A stretch of DNA of 64,000 bases from Sulfurimonas marina (lineage in GTDB: Bacteria > Campylobacterota > Campylobacteria > Campylobacterales > Sulfurimonadaceae): contig NZ_CP041165.1 in the NCBI RefSeq assembly GCF_014905095.1, positions 496,001 through 560,000 on the forward strand. The letters are read 5' to 3'. Each line of letters begins with the position of its first letter. Positions within the stretch are counted from its first letter, which is position 1. The notes under the pieces are model-generated. The model was not told the origin of the DNA, did no database searches, and worked only from the letters and a program-made list of their open reading frames with translations. This document shows, in pieces, positions 1 to 52,594 of the stretch. The translations under genes were made by a program, and so were the position numbers.

Positions 1-1955
1 GAGAAGTATAAAGATGCAAACACTAAAATAAGTACAAAAGAGCCTATAATAACAGGTATCCCTGCATAGAAAAAAACTTTTTCAAGTGTATGTTTTTGAG
101 AGCGTCCAAAATATCTCAAACGGAAGTATTTAAAGGCAAAGTGAATTGTTGCATCTGAAGCAAGCCCCAAAGATATAGTCATGGCTATAAGCATCTCTAA
201 ACTTAGAGGAATGCTTAGGAGTGAGATAATAATTCCAAACCATAGTATTGGGATAACATTTATAGTAAAACCGACAAAGACCATCCCAATTGATCTAAAA
301 ATCCATCCTGTTATAAGTCCTATAATAACAAGGGCTGAAAAAAGCGATGTAGCAAGTAACAATGTTTGGCTGTATTTAGAGATACCAAGCAGTGTTTTAT
401 TGTCTATAAAATAGAGTTCTATCCCTTTATAGTTGACAAGCCACTCCAGAAGTTCAAGTTTATTGATATCAAAAAGATTGATCTCGATGTTTATGGCACT
501 CTCATCAAAATATTTATCGCTTAGATTATAAAGATCCATATAAAAAAGAGCTTGTAGCAGTGCCTCTTGGTCAAGTTCATCAGTTTGGGTATTTGCATTG
601 TTCAGGTTCTCTATGGCAGTTGCAAGAGAGTTGATATCTCCGAGTTCATCCTCAAACCTCTCTTGGAGATCGTTACTGAATTTTTCTACAGAGTGGATGA
701 GGTTTAGATCAAGCTGTTTGTAGGGTACTTTAAGTTCAATCTGCTCATTTTTGACAGGGAGTTTAAAGAGGTTATTGCTTTTTGAGTAGATCAGATACCC
801 GCCGCTGATAAGAAGCAGATAGGTAACAGTTAAAAAACTATAAAGGTATTTTTTTGAATAGTGCAATTCATTTGATGCAAGAAGGTAGCCTAGTTTTGCA
901 TAAGGAACATGGGTGTGTTTGAGTTCAAAGTGACTCACATATGCAGGTAAAAATGTTAAGTTTAACAGATACCCTATGATCGAAGAGATGATTACACTTA
1001 AACTCAGAAGTCTAATAATATCAGAATCAATAAACACTAAACTACCAAGTCCTAGTGCCGTTAAAACAGAGGTCCACATTGCCGGAACCATACTGCGGTT
1101 TAACATTTTTCTCAGGGCATTCATTTTATTCGTTTTGTACTGAGAGACATGCCATCTGTAGTAGAAGTATAAAAAATCAACTAAAGCGATACTAATGGTG
1201 ATAAATGGCATGGTTACATGTATCGTATAGATGTTTGTTACCATTATGATTGTTGTAAATGTCAAGATCGTTGATAGTCCGACAAGTATCATCCCACCGA
1301 TAGCAGCAAGATAGTTGCGAAACAGCAAGCGAAAAACAATCAATGTAACAAACATAAAAATAAATGCATAGAAAAACATTACTTGCCAGTTAATTTCGTG
1401 ATTTACATCTACATATTCATATTCCCCGGGAATATTTAAACTGCTTAGATCTATTGTTTGTTGGCTACGGATAAAAAAGTAAAATGTTTGAAACTCTTCA
1501 TCTACTACATTACAGTAATCATTATGCACCTCTTTTACAAGTTTTTTAAGACGTAAAGTATCTAAGTCTGTAGAGTTTACAACTACAACCATCTCTGAAC
1601 CATCTTCTTTTTTAGTCTCTATAAAGTCATTGCTAAAAAGGGAAGATACTTTTGTAACCCCTTGAAGTGTCAAAAGTTGTTTGTGAAGATTTTTTAACTT
1701 TTCAAGCGAATTCTCATCAAAATTTTTTATATGGACTATTAGTTTGGAAAGATCATATGTATCAAACTGTTGAGCGTTTGTTTTTTTAAGTTCTTGGGAA
1801 TCTTTTAACCAAAACAGCTCATCTGAAGAGAGAAATTTCGGTTGATATAAAAATGCGAGTAGTGCTGCAAGTAAAAAATAGAAAACTATAATAGTTTTAC
1901 GATATTTTACAACTTGATCAACATATCTATTTATATTTGGTGTATGGTAGTACAT
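1..1955 (-). CDS. RND/MMPL-type exporter, 3' end outside window
   Basis: An open frame runs from an ATG at 1955 down to base 1, giving the first 651 residues of a large inner-membrane protein. One helix (about residues 20-37) is followed by a soluble loop of roughly 150 residues, a block of closely spaced helices, a second soluble loop and the start of a second helix block. This is the topology of RND/MMPL exporters, which use the proton gradient to move hydrophobic substrates. The substrate cannot be read from the sequence. The gene upstream on this strand ends only 8 bases away, so the two are probably co-transcribed. Family confidence is good; specific function is unknown. Confidence 0.85.
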   Translation of the reverse strand, partial: MYYHTPNINRYVDQVVKYRKTIIVFYFLLAALLAFLYQPKFLSSDELFWLKDSQELKKTNAQQFDTYDLSKLIVHIKNFDENSLEKLKNLHKQLLTLQGVTKVSSLFSNDFIETKKEDGSEMVVVVNSTDLDTLRLKKLVKEVHNDYCNVVDEEFQTFYFFIRSQQTIDLSSLNIPGEYEYVDVNHEINWQVMFFYAFIFMFVTLIVFRLLFRNYLAAIGGMILVGLSTILTFTTIIMVTNIYTIHVTMPFITISIALVDFLYFYYRWHVSQYKTNKMNALRKMLNRSMVPAMWTSVLTALGLGSLVFIDSDIIRLLSLSVIISSIIGYLLNLTFLPAYVSHFELKHTHVPYAKLGYLLASNELHYSKKYLYSFLTVTYLLLISGGYLIYSKSNNLFKLPVKNEQIELKVPYKQLDLNLIHSVEKFSNDLQERFEDELGDINSLATAIENLNNANTQTDELDQEALLQALFYMDLYNLSDKYFDESAINIEINLFDINKLELLEWLVNYKGIELYFIDNKTLLGISKYSQTLLLATSLFSALVIIGLITGWIFRSIGMVFVGFTINVIPILWFGIIISLLSIPLSLEMLIAMTISLGLASDATIHFAFKYFRLRYFGRSQKHTLEKVFFYAGIPVIIGSFVLILVFASLYF

Positions 1956-1963
1956 TTAAGAAC

Positions 1964-2431
1964 TCACTTTTGAATAATTAAAAAGGGACGTTTATTAACA
2001 TTCATCTTTTTGGCTACAGTCGCAATCCTTTGTACTCTTTGTTTTGAAAGAGGAGTACCGGTAGCGAGAATTGTTTGTTTTGCTATCATGATCTTTAGTA
2101 GGGTATCTATCGGTTTTTTAGAGAGGTAAACGGCTGATACGGCATCTGTTGAATGAAGACGGGGAATACTATACAGATAGATACAGTAACGATATTTTAA
2201 TAACATTTTAGGGTTTTGTGAAACCATAGAGATAAACTTACGAGAGTAGGGGCATAACGGATCTAAAAAAACATAGACTAAACGCTTTCCCTTACCGTAA
2301 ATTAGCCCATCTCTTTCTATACTCTTTAGGAGTGAAATTGAAGTTTCATACGAGGGGGAACTATTGTGTTGAACCTCTGAAGCGTTAAGATATAGTGCCA
2401 ATAAAATAGTTAATATTACTGTTTTAAACAT
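1964..2431 (-). CDS. Exported thioredoxin-fold protein (DsbC/G-like)
   Basis: About 155 residues. The N-terminus (MFKTVILTILLALYLNASEV) is a signal peptide, so the protein should act in the periplasm. The segment VFLDPLCPYSRKF carries a thioredoxin-like Cys-Pro-Tyr-Ser site: the second active-site Cys is replaced by Ser, which suggests a monothiol or binding role rather than classical disulfide exchange. I chose the ATG at 2431 because it puts the signal peptide at the N-terminus; an in-frame GTG at 2464 is an alternative. Neither start has a clear ribosome-binding site. It lies directly upstream of the RND gene and may serve the same envelope function. Confidence 0.7.
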   Translation of the reverse strand: MFKTVILTILLALYLNASEVQHNSSPSYETSISLLKSIERDGLIYGKGKRLVYVFLDPLCPYSRKFISMVSQNPKMLLKYRYCIYLYSIPRLHSTDAVSAVYLSKKPIDTLLKIMIAKQTILATGTPLSKQRVQRIATVAKKMNVNKRPFLIIQK

Positions 2432-2492
2432 AAAAGAATTATAACTATTTTTTATTACACTCACATTACAAAATTGTATGTTTTTTAATCAG

Positions 2493-3071
2493 CTAGAGTT
2501 TTTGACCTTGGCTGATATCCACAAGACTAAGGGCTAGAGCGACTTTGTTCTGGCCAATAATATCGATTGCCTGTTTCATTGTAAGACCAGTTGTTACGAT
2601 ATCATCTACCAAAATAACGTTCTCACCTTGAAAGTTTTTCAGTTGAAAATCTCTGGGATTGTTCTCTCTAAAAGCTTTTGATTTTCCGGAGTAGGAGACT
2701 TTGTTTTTTGCTCTTATCTTATTAAAAAGAGGTTTGATGTTGTAAGAGCTGAGGTGTTTGTTGAGTATAGCCGTATGTGAATATCCACTTGTAATCTTGT
2801 CATCGATTGCAAGAGATATATAGTTCTCTTTTGTATGAAACTCTTCGGCAAATTTAGCAAATGAGTGTTTGGCTAAGATATTGTAAATATGATAACCCAC
2901 ATCTGTATGTTTTGTATGAAGCAGTTTTTTGATCTCATCGTATTTATAAAAAGAGATGAGCTCGATGTTATTGTGAAGTGTTCTTTTGTAGAGGGATGGT
3001 TGAAGAAAGTTTTCTTGACACAACTTGCAGATATGAGTGTAAGAGAATCTCTCACACATCATACAGCGCAT
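2493..3071 (-). CDS. ComF-family phosphoribosyltransferase-like protein
   Basis: About 192 residues. The N-terminus has paired cysteines (MRCMMCERF and HICKLC) typical of the zinc-ribbon start of ComF proteins. The C-terminal half carries the PRPP-binding signature VILVDDIVTTGLTM of type I phosphoribosyltransferases. In naturally competent bacteria ComF supports DNA uptake; in others its role is unclear. An in-frame start at 3101 would add ten residues that do not fit the family, so the ATG at 3071 is preferred. It lies downstream of lepA, separated by hairpins. Confidence 0.85.
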   Translation of the reverse strand: MRCMMCERFSYTHICKLCQENFLQPSLYKRTLHNNIELISFYKYDEIKKLLHTKHTDVGYHIYNILAKHSFAKFAEEFHTKENYISLAIDDKITSGYSHTAILNKHLSSYNIKPLFNKIRAKNKVSYSGKSKAFRENNPRDFQLKNFQGENVILVDDIVTTGLTMKQAIDIIGQNKVALALSLVDISQGQKL

Positions 3072-3088
3072 GTTAGTCCATTTTAAGA

Positions 3089-3144
3089 ACAGACATAACA
3101 ACTACTGTTTGTCTGTCTTCTTGCAATTGGAACAAGTTCCAATT
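3089..3144 (-). other. Two hairpins between lepA and comF
   Basis: Two inverted repeats lie in the gap: ACAGACA/TGTCTGT (3089-3095 with 3110-3116) and a perfect 9-base repeat AATTGGAAC-aa-GTTCCAATT (3125-3144). They follow lepA on the minus strand. No long U-tract follows, so they are better seen as weak terminators or mRNA-processing hairpins than as classical terminators. Confidence 0.4.
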
Positions 3145-3197
3145 AGAATTCATCTCACTAAAGCTTTTGCTTTCGCAAAGAGAGACATTCATATTTA

Positions 3198-4988
3198 TTA
3201 ATCCATTTTTAGTACGGACATAAATGCCTCTTGCGGAAGTTGTACTTTTCCGATAGCTTTCATACGTTTTTTACCTGCTTTTTGTTTTTCAAGCAGTTTT
3301 CTTTTACGGGTGATATCACCACCGTAACATTTTGCCGTAACATTTTTACCTGTAGATTTTACAGTCTCACGAGCAATAACCTGACTTCCAAGAGATGCTT
3401 GAACAGCAACTTCGAAAAGTTGGCGAGGAATTAACTCTTTCATATTTTTTACAAGTGCACGTCCGCGCGGCAGCGCTTGTGTACGTGGCACGATAACACT
3501 TAGAGCATCCACAGCTTCACCTGCAACTTTAATATCAAGTTTTACAAGGTCACCCTGTTTGAAGTCAATTGGTTCATAATCAAAAGAAGCATACCCTTTT
3601 GAGATAGATTTCAGCGTATCGTAGAAATCCATTACAATCTCATTCATAGGGATCTCATACTCAAGCATAACTCTATCCTCGTTGAGGTAAGTCATCTTCG
3701 TTTGGTTACCGCGTTTAGAAACCAGTAGCGTGATAATATTTCCAAGATATTCACTTGGAGTAATCACAGTTGCACGTACATACGGCTCTTCAATATGATC
3801 TATCTTTTGAACAGGTGGTAGTTCTGAAGGATTTTGTACTTCAATCTTTGTCCCGTCAGTCATATATACATGATAGATTACCGAAGGTGCTGTTGCAATC
3901 AAGTCAAGACCGTATTCACGCTCAAGTCTCTCTTTAATAACTTCCATGTGTAGCATTCCAAGGAAACCTACACGGAAACCAAATCCAAGAGCCACTGATG
4001 TCTCAGGCTCATAAGATAAAGATGAGTCGTTAAGTTTTAACTTGTCAAGCGCATCACGAAGATCTTCAAATTTATCAGTATCGATCGGATAAAGTCCTGC
4101 AAATACAAACGGTTTTGCCGGTTCATAATCTCCAACAGGCTCTGCAGTAGGATTTTTAGCATCTGTAATTGTATCACCAACGCTTACAACACTTACCTCT
4201 TTAAGTCCAAGTACAACAATACCGATCTCACCTGATTTGATTGAACCTGTTTTGATCTTTTTCTTAGGGTGTGGATACATAAGATCAAGTACCTGATGCT
4301 CCTCTCCACTACTCATAAGTTTAATCGTTTGACCTTTTGAGATCTCTCCGTCAAATACACGAACAAGTGCAAGTGCACCGAGATATGTATCGAACCAAGA
4401 ATCGTAAATAATCGCTTTCGTTGTTGCATCAGGATCTCCAACAGGTGCAGGTACACGATCAACGATAGCGTCAATTAGTTCACGAATACCTATACCTGTT
4501 TTCGCACTGACAAGTACGGCATCTGTTGCATCGATTCCAATTGAAGTTTCAATCTCTTCAGCTACACGTTCAGGTTCAGCTGCAGGGAGATCTATCTTGT
4601 TGATAACAGGGATCAGTTCAAGGTCATTGTCAAGTGCAAGATATACATTTGCAATCGTTTGTGCTTCAACACCTTGTGCAGCATCAACGATTAAAAGTGC
4701 ACCGTCAGATGAGGCAAGTGATTTACTTACCTCATAAGAAAAGTCAACGTGGCCCGGAGTGTCTATAAGGTTAAGGATATAGTGCTCACCGTCTTTTACA
4801 TAGTCAAGTCTAACAGATTGTGCTTTGATCGTGATACCACGCTCTTGTTCAATATCCATAGTATCCATCATCTGTGAGCTAAGCTCTCTATCACTTACTG
4901 CTCCACACTCCTGGATAATTCTATCTGCTAGTGTACTTTTACCGTGATCAATATGTGCGATAATAGAAAAGTTTCTAATATTTTCCAA
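3198..4988 (-). CDS. lepA: Elongation factor 4 (back-translocating GTPase)
   Basis: 596 residues, the normal length for LepA. The G1 motif AHIDHGKST and the G3 motif DTPGHVDF are at the N-terminus, NKIDLP is G4, and the C-terminal LepA-specific domain ends with a lysine/arginine-rich segment ([20 protein letters not shown]). LepA acts on the ribosome and helps initiation or stalled elongation. The start is TTG, preceded by a GAGGA ribosome-binding site; no ATG fits better. It begins 9 bases after prs ends, so the two are likely one transcript. Confidence 0.97.
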
Positions 4989-21474: not shown

Positions 21475-21483
21475 TAAAAATAA

Positions 21484-21561
21484 ACTATAGTTTACTGCCT
21501 CGCAAAGGGGCAAGCTATAGTGAGCCAAGTGCTCCGTTATGAATGAAGAGAACTCTTCATT
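21484..21561 (+). promoter_or_regulatory. Structured leader between two ferredoxin genes
   Basis: Two stem-loops are visible. In the first, ACTATAG (21484-21490) pairs with CTATAGT (21515-21521) and encloses TGCCTC-gcaaa-GGGGCA. The second is a perfect 9-base repeat AATGAAGAG-aa-CTCTTCATT (21542-21561). No strong U-tract follows. This could tune the amount of the downstream ferredoxin or be an mRNA-processing site. Confidence 0.5.
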
Positions 21562-21590
21562 TTATGAAATCAAACTAAGGAAAGAGAAAA

Positions 21591-32570: not shown

Positions 32571-32598
32571 AAGGATGAAAAAAAGGCAATAGTGCCAT

Positions 32599-32657
32599 GG
32601 GCTTCCTGCCGAAGGAAACCCAGTGTTAACGTAGTTGACGGAATTACTTCCGACAAC
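32599..32657 (+). ncRNA. Covarying two-hairpin RNA element, copy A
   Basis: Read along the nifS to nifU transcript, hairpin 1 is GGGCTTCC-TGCCGAA-GGAAACCC (32599-32621). A linker AGTGTTAACGTAG (32622-32634) follows, then hairpin 2, GTTG-a-CGGAA-TTAC-TTCCG-a-CAAC (32634-32657). A second copy lies at 52498-52553 on the other strand. Loops and linker are identical, while stem bases differ in a compensating way. It may be a cis-regulatory RNA, an mRNA-processing site or a mobile intergenic repeat. Confidence 0.65.
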
Positions 32658-32715
32658 GTATCAAAAGGGAATAAAAAAGGTTCCCTTAAATTTATGAAAT
32701 AAATTAAAGGAAAGT

Positions 32716-33699
32716 ATGATGGCAAAGGCAAGTTTAGTAGGCGGATCAATTTGGGATGAGTATAGTAATATTGTTGTAGATAGAATGAATAACCCTAAAC
32801 ACCAAGGGCATATTACTGAAGAGGAAGCTGAGGCGATGAATGCAACTTTGATCGTTGCAGACTTCGGAGCTGAGAGTTGTGGTGATGCGGTAAGACTTTA
32901 CTGGGCAGTTGAAAAAGATACGGACAAAATTGTAGGAAGTAAATTTAAAAGTTTTGGATGTGGTACTGCTATTGCGAGTTCTGACATTATGACTGAGCTT
33001 TGTATGGGTAAAACTGTTGATGAAGCGGTAAAAATTACAAATATCGATGTTGAAAAAGCGATGCGTGATACTCCAGATACTCCTGCTGTTCCACCGCAAA
33101 AGATGCACTGTTCTGTTATGGCGTATGATGTTATCAAAAAAGCGGCAGCTACGTACAAAGGTGTAGATGCTGAGAGTTTTGAAGAGGAGTTTATCATTTG
33201 TGAGTGTGCTCGTGTAACACAAGATACACTTATTGATGTAATTAAGATCAATGATCTTAAAACTATTGAGGAGATCATCGACTTTACAAAAGCGGGTGGT
33301 TTTTGTAAATCTTGTATAAAACCTGGCGGACATGAAGCAAAAGATATCTATCTAGAAGATATTTTAAAAGATACACGTGAAGAGATGGAACGTGAGCGTC
33401 TAACAGCTATGGCAAATGCTCCAAAAGAGGATAAAGCTGATTTCGCATCTATGAGTATGGTACAAAAAACACGTGCAATCGATGCTGTAGTTGAGGAGTA
33501 TGTACGCCCAATGCTTATCATGGACGGCGGAGATATGGAGCTTGTAGATATTAAAGAGGAGAACGGAAATTTTGACGTTTACATTAAATATCTCGGTGCA
33601 TGTTCAACATGTTCTACGGGAAGCACGGGTACATTGTATGCAATCGAGAGTACGCTAAAACAAAACCTTGATGATAGAATCAGAGTAATCACACTCTAA
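32716..33699 (+). CDS. nifU: Fe-S scaffold protein NifU
   Basis: 327 residues with all three NifU parts: IscU-like scaffold ([23 protein letters not shown] and MHCSVMA carry the Cys ligands), central 2Fe-2S domain (CECARVT ... GGFCKSCI) and NFU domain ([10 protein letters not shown]). It builds clusters with NifS for the nitrogenase proteins. Two ATG codons in a row start the frame; the first is listed. Confidence 0.96.
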
Positions 33700-51017: not shown

Positions 51018-52010
51018 CTAATCAAGATCGCAAAACTCTAGATTTGGCAACTCCGGGCGTTCTAAAGAGTTCTCCTGGATATATAGATTTTTAAGTTTTG
51101 TAAGCTTTGAGAAAGACTCAGGATACTCCTCTAGATAGTTCTCCTCTATATCTAATTCTAAAAGATTTTCCAACTCCCCTATACACTCAGGAAGTGTTTT
51201 TAGTTTATTTGCACTCACACTTAAATGGTTGAGCTTTTTGAGTTTGCACAGAGAATCGGGCAGATATTCAAGGTGATTATTGTCAAGTGTTAAGATCTGG
51301 AGATCTTCTAAGGCACTTAGGTCAAAGTCGATAGTTGTAAGATCATTATCATTCAGATTGAGTTTAATTAACATATCGTGAGACTCTAAAGAGGGAAGAT
51401 TATTGATCTGGTTCCCCTCAAGGAGCAGCGTTTCTAGTTCATCTATATGACTCAAAGAGGATGGTAGTTTCGTAAAGTTGTTATACGAAAGATCGAGATA
51501 ATAAAGTGATCTCATCCCTTCAAAAATTTCCGGAAGTTCGTCTAAGTTATTTGTATCGAGTGAAAAATACAACAGTTTTTTAAGTTTATAAAACTCTTTT
51601 GGAATACTCTCCAGGGCATTTGCAGCTATCGTTAGACGTGTTAGCGTAGTTAGTTTGCAAAAACTGTTAGGAAGTGATTTTAGTCTATTGCCGTTTAGGT
51701 TTAAGATGATCAAAGAATCGAGTGCACCGATTGAATCGGGTAGTTCTTTTAAAAGATTGTTTTCACATTGCAGATTTTTGAGTTTTTTTAGGTTCCCTAT
51801 ACTTTTTGGAAGTGCTTCAAGTCTGTTGTTTGAAAGTTTCAGGACAACAAGGTTTGGTAAAAAACCGATACTTGGAGGAAGTTCACGAATCTTGCATTTT
51901 GAGAGATCAAGCACAGATAGTGTTTTTAGTTTTTCTATATCTGTAGGAACTTTTGAAGTCAGCCCTTTGCTCTTGATCCATCTTGCGAAATCTTCTAAAA
52001 TCGTATCCAT
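51018..52010 (-). CDS. Cytoplasmic leucine-rich repeat protein in the nifV operon
   Basis: 330 residues with about twelve 23-residue repeats of the form L-x-x-L-x-L-x-x-N-x-L-x-x-L-P. There is no signal peptide, so it should act in the cytoplasm as a protein-binding surface. It starts 8 bases after the small Cys protein and is last in the nifV operon. Azotobacter has a different Leu-rich variant protein in its nif cluster. No partner is known here. Confidence 0.88.
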   Translation of the reverse strand: MDTILEDFARWIKSKGLTSKVPTDIEKLKTLSVLDLSKCKIRELPPSIGFLPNLVVLKLSNNRLEALPKSIGNLKKLKNLQCENNLLKELPDSIGALDSLIILNLNGNRLKSLPNSFCKLTTLTRLTIAANALESIPKEFYKLKKLLYFSLDTNNLDELPEIFEGMRSLYYLDLSYNNFTKLPSSLSHIDELETLLLEGNQINNLPSLESHDMLIKLNLNDNDLTTIDFDLSALEDLQILTLDNNHLEYLPDSLCKLKKLNHLSVSANKLKTLPECIGELENLLELDIEENYLEEYPESFSKLTKLKNLYIQENSLERPELPNLEFCDLD

Positions 52011-52260: not shown

Positions 52261-52467
52261 TTATTGTAAAAACGAATGCTCAGCTTTGAAGTCTTCAACT
52301 ACTTTCATAGCTGTTTGAACTTCTTCGCTAAGAGGTATGAGTCTGCCATAATCAGTCCAGATTGTATCTTCAACTATGTCATGGATCTCACCTGCAAGTT
52401 CTACAACTTTTCTTTTGTAACCTGCTAACTCTTTTTTTAGTGCTTTTTGTTCATCTGTTAATGCCAT
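52261..52467 (-). CDS. Nif-associated DUF683 (CCE_0567-like) protein
   Basis: 68 residues, a helical hairpin. LKKELAGYKRKVVELAGEIHDIVED and the following IPLSEEVQTAM match the small metalloprotein family typified by cyanobacterial CCE_0567, which is tied to nif clusters, usually near nifX. A strong AAGGAG precedes the ATG. Here it is in the nifV operon. Confidence 0.8.
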   Translation of the reverse strand: MALTDEQKALKKELAGYKRKVVELAGEIHDIVEDTIWTDYGRLIPLSEEVQTAMKVVEDFKAEHSFLQ

Positions 52468-52497
52468 TATATTACTCCTTAATTTTATTTTATACGC

Positions 52498-52553
52498 TAC
52501 TGAAAGTAATTTCAGTACCTACGTTAACACTAGGTTCTCTTCGGCAGAGAGCC
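52498..52553 (-). ncRNA. Covarying two-hairpin RNA element, copy B
   Basis: Read on the minus strand, along the nifV transcript, the element has hairpin 1 GGCTCTC-TGCCGAA-GAGAACC, the linker AGTGTTAACGTAG and hairpin 2 TACTGAAA-TTAC-TTTCAGTA. It is collinear with copy A (32599-32657) over about 75 bases. Both copies are sense to their operons and fill an internal gap, here between the GNAT-like and DUF683 genes. Confidence 0.65.
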
Positions 52554-52594
52554 CGGCGCACCTTCGATGCTTTTAAATATGCAAAAAACTTTCC

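Follow-up and report, generated by a model that had tools for sequence, protein, structure and literature searches.

Small repeats of bacterial genomes such as MITEs, Correia/NEMIS, RUP and BOX are short, non-autonomous, structured and modular sequences that lie between genes and are read into operons. According to the text of Di Nocera et al. 2013 (PMC3733652), repeats of the GTAG type occur in an unnamed epsilon-proteobacterium and those of the CGTC type in Sulfurovum NBC37-1. REPs have been counted in Sulfurimonas gotlandica with RepRanger, in whose accessible text the element analysed here is not described. Likewise, no paper naming or describing it was found in the text of the open-access literature searched. 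We studied a stretch of 64,000 nucleotides from Sulfurimonas marina (hereafter the window), where a two-hairpin RNA element between nifS and nifU and a second copy had been predicted to act as a regulator within nif operons. We conclude, with a probability of about 0.78, that the nifS-nifU element is one member of a family of dispersed, probably mobile, non-autonomous REP-like structured repeats of free-living Campylobacterota. This previously unnamed family is real and its structure is strongly conserved, and it is not a nitrogen-fixation switch.

The window carries two copies, A in the nifS-nifU spacer and B upstream of a gene for a Rop-like protein, and Pfam matches agree with the identities of NifS (aminotransferase class V), NifU and the Rop-like protein. 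Their parts are as follows.

32571..32576, + strand: AAGGAT 5' of copy A, the probable ancestral nifU Shine-Dalgarno sequence (SD), judged against the empty site AAAAAGGATATCAAATGG of relative G047
32585..32596, + strand: copy A hairpin P1, GGCA-ATAG-TGCC (fold)
32599..32621, + strand: copy A hairpin P2, GGGC-UUCC-UGCCGAA-GGAA-ACCC, with the conserved loop (fold and 24-copy alignment)
32622..32634, + strand: copy A conserved linker AGUGUUAACGUAG, its GTAG end at the foot of P3
32635..32661, + strand: copy A hairpin P3 with a UUAC loop, then CGUAU (fold and 24-copy alignment)
32665..32687, + strand: copy A hairpin P4, AAGGGAA...UUCCCUU, a Sulfurimonas-type downstream module (fold; recurs 3' of the core)
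32689..32711, + strand: copy A A/T hairpin P5, AAUUUAU-GAA-AUAAAUU, then the SD (fold)
32706-32711, + strand: SD AAAGGA after P5 of copy A, with the nifU start codon at 32716
52261-52467: Rop-like gene (PF05082), downstream of copy B
52492..52554, - strand: copy B core, P2-linker-P3-CGUAU
52558..52570, - strand: copy B hairpin P1, GCAUC-GAA-GGUGC (fold)

A gap-free alignment of copy A (32599-32661, + strand) and copy B (52554-52492, - strand) spans 63 nt and contains 15 differences. None of these falls in the TGCCGAA loop, the TTAC loop or the linker AGTGTTAACGTAG, and five pairs have changed on both sides with pairing intact (6/18, 7/17, 39/56, 41/54 and 43/52), while a sixth, 40/55, changes from A.A to C-G. 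When 15 substitutions were placed at random, five or more compensated pairs arose in 0 of 200,000 draws, and both copies folded better than their shuffles (z -2.4 for A and -2.3 for B). The predicted pattern of identical loops and 13-base linker, with stems that differ at paired positions, is therefore borne out. The alignment itself, described as covering about 75 bases, is real and gap-free over the 63 nt; the bounds first drawn for the element were too narrow, because a third hairpin, P1, sits upstream of both copies, and P4, P5 and the SD of copy A (32665-32711) had been missed as well. Immediately 3' of the copy B core lies AAAATAAAATTAAGGA, which corresponds to the 3' half of P5 plus an SD, with P4 absent. 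A consensus scan of the copy A leader returned neither a promoter nor a terminator. Copy B and the nif region are also adjoined by a gene for a leucine-rich-repeat protein of 330 aa (51018-52010, - strand). Elsewhere in the window, a multi-hairpin spacer that separates two 2Fe-2S ferredoxin genes (21475-21590, + strand) has a P4-P5-like module (ATGAAGAGAACTCTTCATTTTATGAAATC..AAGGA) and an SD at its end, whereas its upstream core is a different one (ACTGCCTCGCAAAGGGGCAAGCTATAGTG).

The general plan of the element is P1-P2-13-nt linker-GTAG-P3, spanning about 75-90 nt. In an alignment of 24 same-genus copies, the three helices comprised 22 pairs, of which 14 had changed on both sides, and 93% of the cells were paired; covariation reached 0.475, as compared with 0.19 for shuffled and at most 0.13 for slid alignments. 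P1, which has the most variable stem sequence of the family, was paired in 80.6% of its cells and showed double changes at all 6 of its pairs. The P2 loop takes the form C-GCUGA-G in other copies, and the linker reads AGCGUUAGCGUAG in many relatives as opposed to AGUGUUAACGUAG in copy A. The GTAG 5' of P3 was invariant in alignment A3, its final G being mostly base-paired (G-C in 22 of the 24 copies). Downstream, P5 was present in 39 of 63 distinct Sulfurimonas copies (about 60%), usually with P4 alongside; nearly all of these P5-bearing copies have a start codon nearby, usually 78-88 nt past the core, and most have an SD.

Several variations on this plan were observed. A sister core, type II, consists of P1, AGCTTYAGTGCCAYAGCGGCTAGCGWAG and the same P3, and in several genomes it lies between iscS and iscU; we found 14 distinct instances (L110, L261-L272, L062, L091, L139, L195), often at this site and with the same P4-P5-SD module downstream. 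Five loci (L026, L258, L147, L081 and L111) carry another small palindrome, GYGCCCC..GRGGGTAT, inserted within the linker or the P3 loop of the element. At the rpiB site of the host (L043), P1 forms a stem of 10 bp that takes in, on its 5' strand, the end of the rpiB coding sequence, as if it had been formed against host flank sequence. Adjacent tandem copies (L145, L171, L179) differ mainly in compensated stem bases, their loops and linkers being alike.

The wobble pairs of P3 indicate which strand is constrained. With both kinds treated alike in pairing, we counted 111 G.U against 21 A.C cells, distributed as 48:12 in sense, 34:7 in antisense and 29:2 in mixed copies, counts in which the copies share ancestry, the cells are not independent and strand-biased mutation could contribute. 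Quasipalindrome correction as the only source of the covariation predicts equal numbers of G.U and A.C, and was rejected. The element preserves its fold on its own strand irrespective of the direction of the genes around it, a bias that would be expected neither from mRNA function alone nor from palindrome correction at the duplex level. The recognised form is therefore suggested to be a folded single strand, either ssDNA or the element's own RNA. Together with the covariation and the compensated pairs, this bias supports the selected folded structure that the original prediction had read from two copies.

To describe the distribution of the element, we combined exact, pattern and covariance-model searches. 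An exact search for the core TGCCGAA..GTGTTAACGTAG gave two matches in the host genome and matches in 19 of 100 same-genus genomes, as against zero for the reversed control pattern. The covariance-model search that had been proposed at the outset (model R1) yielded 10 copies in the host genome (E<=1.5e-6) and many more across the phylum: copies were found in 77 of 85 near-complete same-genus genomes (0-49 each listed, and 59 in the richest, G036, in a fuller search) and, in a phylum sample, in 50 of 298 genomes and 11 of 58 genera. A pattern scan of named genomes gave at least 120 stretches. Among the matches listed, the hosts were campylobacterotal by name (Sulfurimonas, Sulfurovum, Sulfurospirillum, Sulfuricurvum, Hydrogenimonas, Arcobacter and others), with the lone exception of one MAG labelled Proteobacteria. 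On mobile DNA, we found one short plasmid match (Sulfurovum) and one IMG/VR match, and the phage sequences searched held none; spread by plasmids or phages was rejected on these counts.

Copies also occur in arrays and inverted pairs. Exact head-to-tail arrays comprised 5 units of 90 nt (L102), 2 of 91 nt (L103) and 3 of 96 nt (L110 in G038, with the type II core), and Sulfurospirillum cavolei has four model matches spaced 92 nt apart. In genome G274, an inverted pair lies directly 5' of the 23S gene in four near-identical rRNA operon loci (L333-L336). In genome G012, an inverted pair lies inside the 23S rRNA gene itself (L337, 1497-1666, within the LSU at 329-3201), at a position estimated from the Rfam match as near E. 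coli 1170, and it folds as a long duplex (z -9.0). The G012 pair, and neither of the window copies, is located at a known intervening-sequence helix of 23S, and it would be an intervening sequence that derives from a dispersed repeat. Intervening sequences of 23S are not known to be copies of a genome-wide dispersed repeat.

The ten host copies, seven sense and three antisense, all lie in unrelated operon spacers: nifS-nifU, leuC, the Rop-like gene, hisH-hisA (antisense), gpmI-fabG, frr-pyrE (antisense), thiC-mrp, rpiB, cbiA-fec (antisense) and ilvE-hflK, where the gene names beyond NifS, NifU and Rop-like were read from translations. Neighbours in other genomes include lpxA-clpX, plsX, rplJ/rplL, nusG-rplK, fabI, nusB and many others. 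The commonest single site sampled was the nifS/iscS-nifU/iscU spacer (6 loci), one among many housekeeping spacers, and a search for a recurrent flanking 'helper' gene found none, the repeated neighbours being housekeeping genes. These data bear directly on a nif-specific cis-regulatory RNA, that is, one that controls nifU and a nif-cluster gene as a riboswitch, an attenuator or an sRNA target. Such an RNA would suit the strong covarying structure and the position of both window copies, which are indeed in sense orientation within the nif region and just 5' of genes, as originally stated. This context does not extend beyond the pair: eight of the ten genome copies are elsewhere, and the genes downstream of copies, among them leuC, hisH/hisA, fabG, pyrE, mrp, clpX, plsX, fabI, rplK and nusB, do not form a single class or pathway read in sense. 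Moreover, the nifS-nifU spacer is empty in four relatives, including the closest, orientation across the phylum is near even, and comparison with Rfam, which the original prediction had also proposed, gave nothing relevant either at the gathering threshold or at E<=10. Because of this distribution we reject nif-specific regulation, which we regard as highly improbable; the prediction itself had stated that many copies scattered regardless of gene context would favour a dispersed repeat, and this is what the ten host sites present.

The reading of the element as a dispersed, probably mobile repeat was examined further at orthologous sites of related genomes. At nifS-nifU, the element is absent from G047, whose flanks are 92-93% identical, and from G082, G002 and G085, and at gpmI-fabG and thiC-mrp the core is found in the host alone among these five genomes. 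The rpiB and cbiA-fec copies are common to the host and G047, their sites being empty in G082 and G002; at frr-pyrE, the element is present in G082 (by sequence) and G047 (by flank spacing) and missing from G002 and G085. The Rop-like site lacks it in G047 and, by flank spacing, in G002 and G085, while G082 has a model match. This nested occupancy fits a stepwise gain of copies. The leuC, hisH-hisA and ilvE-hflK sites are occupied in the host and G085 and empty in G047, and therefore recurrent insertion, loss or recombination also occurs. At nifS-nifU, comparison with the empty site of G047 suggests that the element was inserted downstream of the ancestral SD and ahead of the start codon, bringing a new SD with it. 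Clean junctions, exact ends or target duplications could not be read from the empty sites, because the relatives are only ~80-98% identical and the spacers have been rewritten, and terminal inverted repeats were not demonstrated. The nifS-nifU and Rop-like-gene copies are probably near-neutral passengers, which perhaps alter local mRNA processing or translation.

Alternatively, an RNA-level spacer element under selection, such as an RNase III/E processing or stability site or a translation leader, might have been duplicated and then retained at each site for its function. The Sulfurimonas sets, in which sense copies dominate (12:2 and 11:1), leave room for such a role, and the frequent P5 with its nearby start codon and SD, the sites shared between species (iscS-iscU, hisH-hisA, rplJ-rplL and nusG-rplK) and the duplex of the inverted pair in 23S all point in the same direction. 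Against this, copies between co-directional genes in the phylum-wide named set numbered 29 sense and 26 antisense, the wobble bias tracks the strand of the element rather than that of the gene, and the same sites are unoccupied in related species. We thus consider retention for an RNA-level function unlikely.

If the element is a mobile repeat, as we favour, a factor acting in trans would be expected to move it, yet no Y1 transposase, RAYT (REP-associated tyrosine transposase) or reverse transcriptase was found above threshold in the host genome. A classical GTAG-tagged REP/REPIN moved by a RAYT would agree with the GTAG immediately 5' of hairpin P3, with the intergenic location of the copies, their dimers and arrays, and with the occurrence of RAYTs (NF047646) in the genus. 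However, no RAYT match was obtained in the host, G047, G085 (12 copies) or G015 (13 copies), none of the 20 Y1/RAYT loci examined contained the element, and copy number was uncorrelated with Y1 count (rho 0.06, p 0.58). The Sulfurimonas RAYT at L319 (G118, 420-1330) is flanked by a different palindrome/REP family of its own, GTTCCACC..GGTGGAAC; the form GTTCCACC..GGTGGAACTAG was also noted for this family. Even the GTAG at the 5' foot of the hairpin departs from the classical form in that its last G is usually paired, and the unit is not a single 20-40 bp palindrome with mostly inverted dimers. The element therefore behaves like a REP, yet differs from REPs in unit form and in lacking a RAYT link, and a RAYT-driven origin appears very unlikely. 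RAYTs and Y1 proteins were accordingly rejected as mobilisers, as in the genomes and loci examined neither was associated with the element by co-occurrence or by adjacency. Reverse transcriptases, present in 18 of 85 genus genomes and without a match in the host, were rejected as well. Integron attC sites have the core GTTRRRY, and the GTTARCG of the element does not fit it.

For the spread of the repeat, we propose that a trans-acting factor would recognise the folded single strand by its invariant parts, namely the P2 loop, the linker and P3, either as ssDNA during replication or transfer or as the element's RNA, and would insert new copies into spacers. Arrays might then grow by slippage or by insertion beside an existing copy. 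Sense copies in Sulfurimonas, which usually bring P4, P5 and an SD, could restore initiation after insertion between a stop and a start codon, and such insertions would be tolerated because of the carried SD. The inverted pair in 23S would fold into a long duplex such as RNase III trims out. Taken further, the family might represent a mobile element of a new kind, moving as a folded single strand and, in Sulfurimonas, with core-P4-P5-SD as a portable 5' leader replacing the native ribosome-binding region and with inverted pairs creating RNase III-removable 23S intervening sequences, a proposal that we put forward tentatively, as a speculative possibility.

The family is a sharply defined and undescribed one in an ecologically dominant phylum, that of the sulfur-oxidising Campylobacterota, and sister species offer ready pairs of empty and occupied sites. 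It separates REP-like spread from RAYTs and connects an element dispersed throughout the genome with 16S-23S spacers and with a putative 23S intervening sequence. It also cautions against reading a gene regulator from compensating base changes alone.

Compared with known systems, the element resembles riboswitch-like leaders in being a covarying multi-hairpin structure 5' of start codons, at a fairly constant start distance in Sulfurimonas, but it differs in having no gene-class association, antisense copies, presence or absence among relatives and no Rfam family. With MITEs and small palindromic repeats, it shares the short, structured, intergenic and modular form that is read into operons, but its single-strand loops and linker are conserved. 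The G012 pair is like 23S intervening sequences such as that in helix 45 of Coxiella (PMC4990558) in lying in the helix-45 region and in its predicted long duplex, whereas its 170-nt insert is too small for an S23 protein ORF. REPs and REPINs, as described in the texts of PMC3733652 and of Bertels and Rainey 2011 (PMC3116915), are alike in being intergenic, dispersed and palindromic, with GTAG by the hairpin, frequent G-T pairs in the stem and dimers or arrays, and the epsilon-proteobacterial GTAG family, compared through the text of the former paper alone, may overlap with ours. As far as those texts describe REPs, the element nevertheless stands apart from them: it has three hairpins and an invariant linker of 13 nt where REPs have a single hairpin of 20-40 bp, its arrays are mostly head-to-tail, an arrangement rare or absent as dimers in most REP families, and it lacks a RAYT link, reaches lower copy numbers (0-59) and carries an SD.
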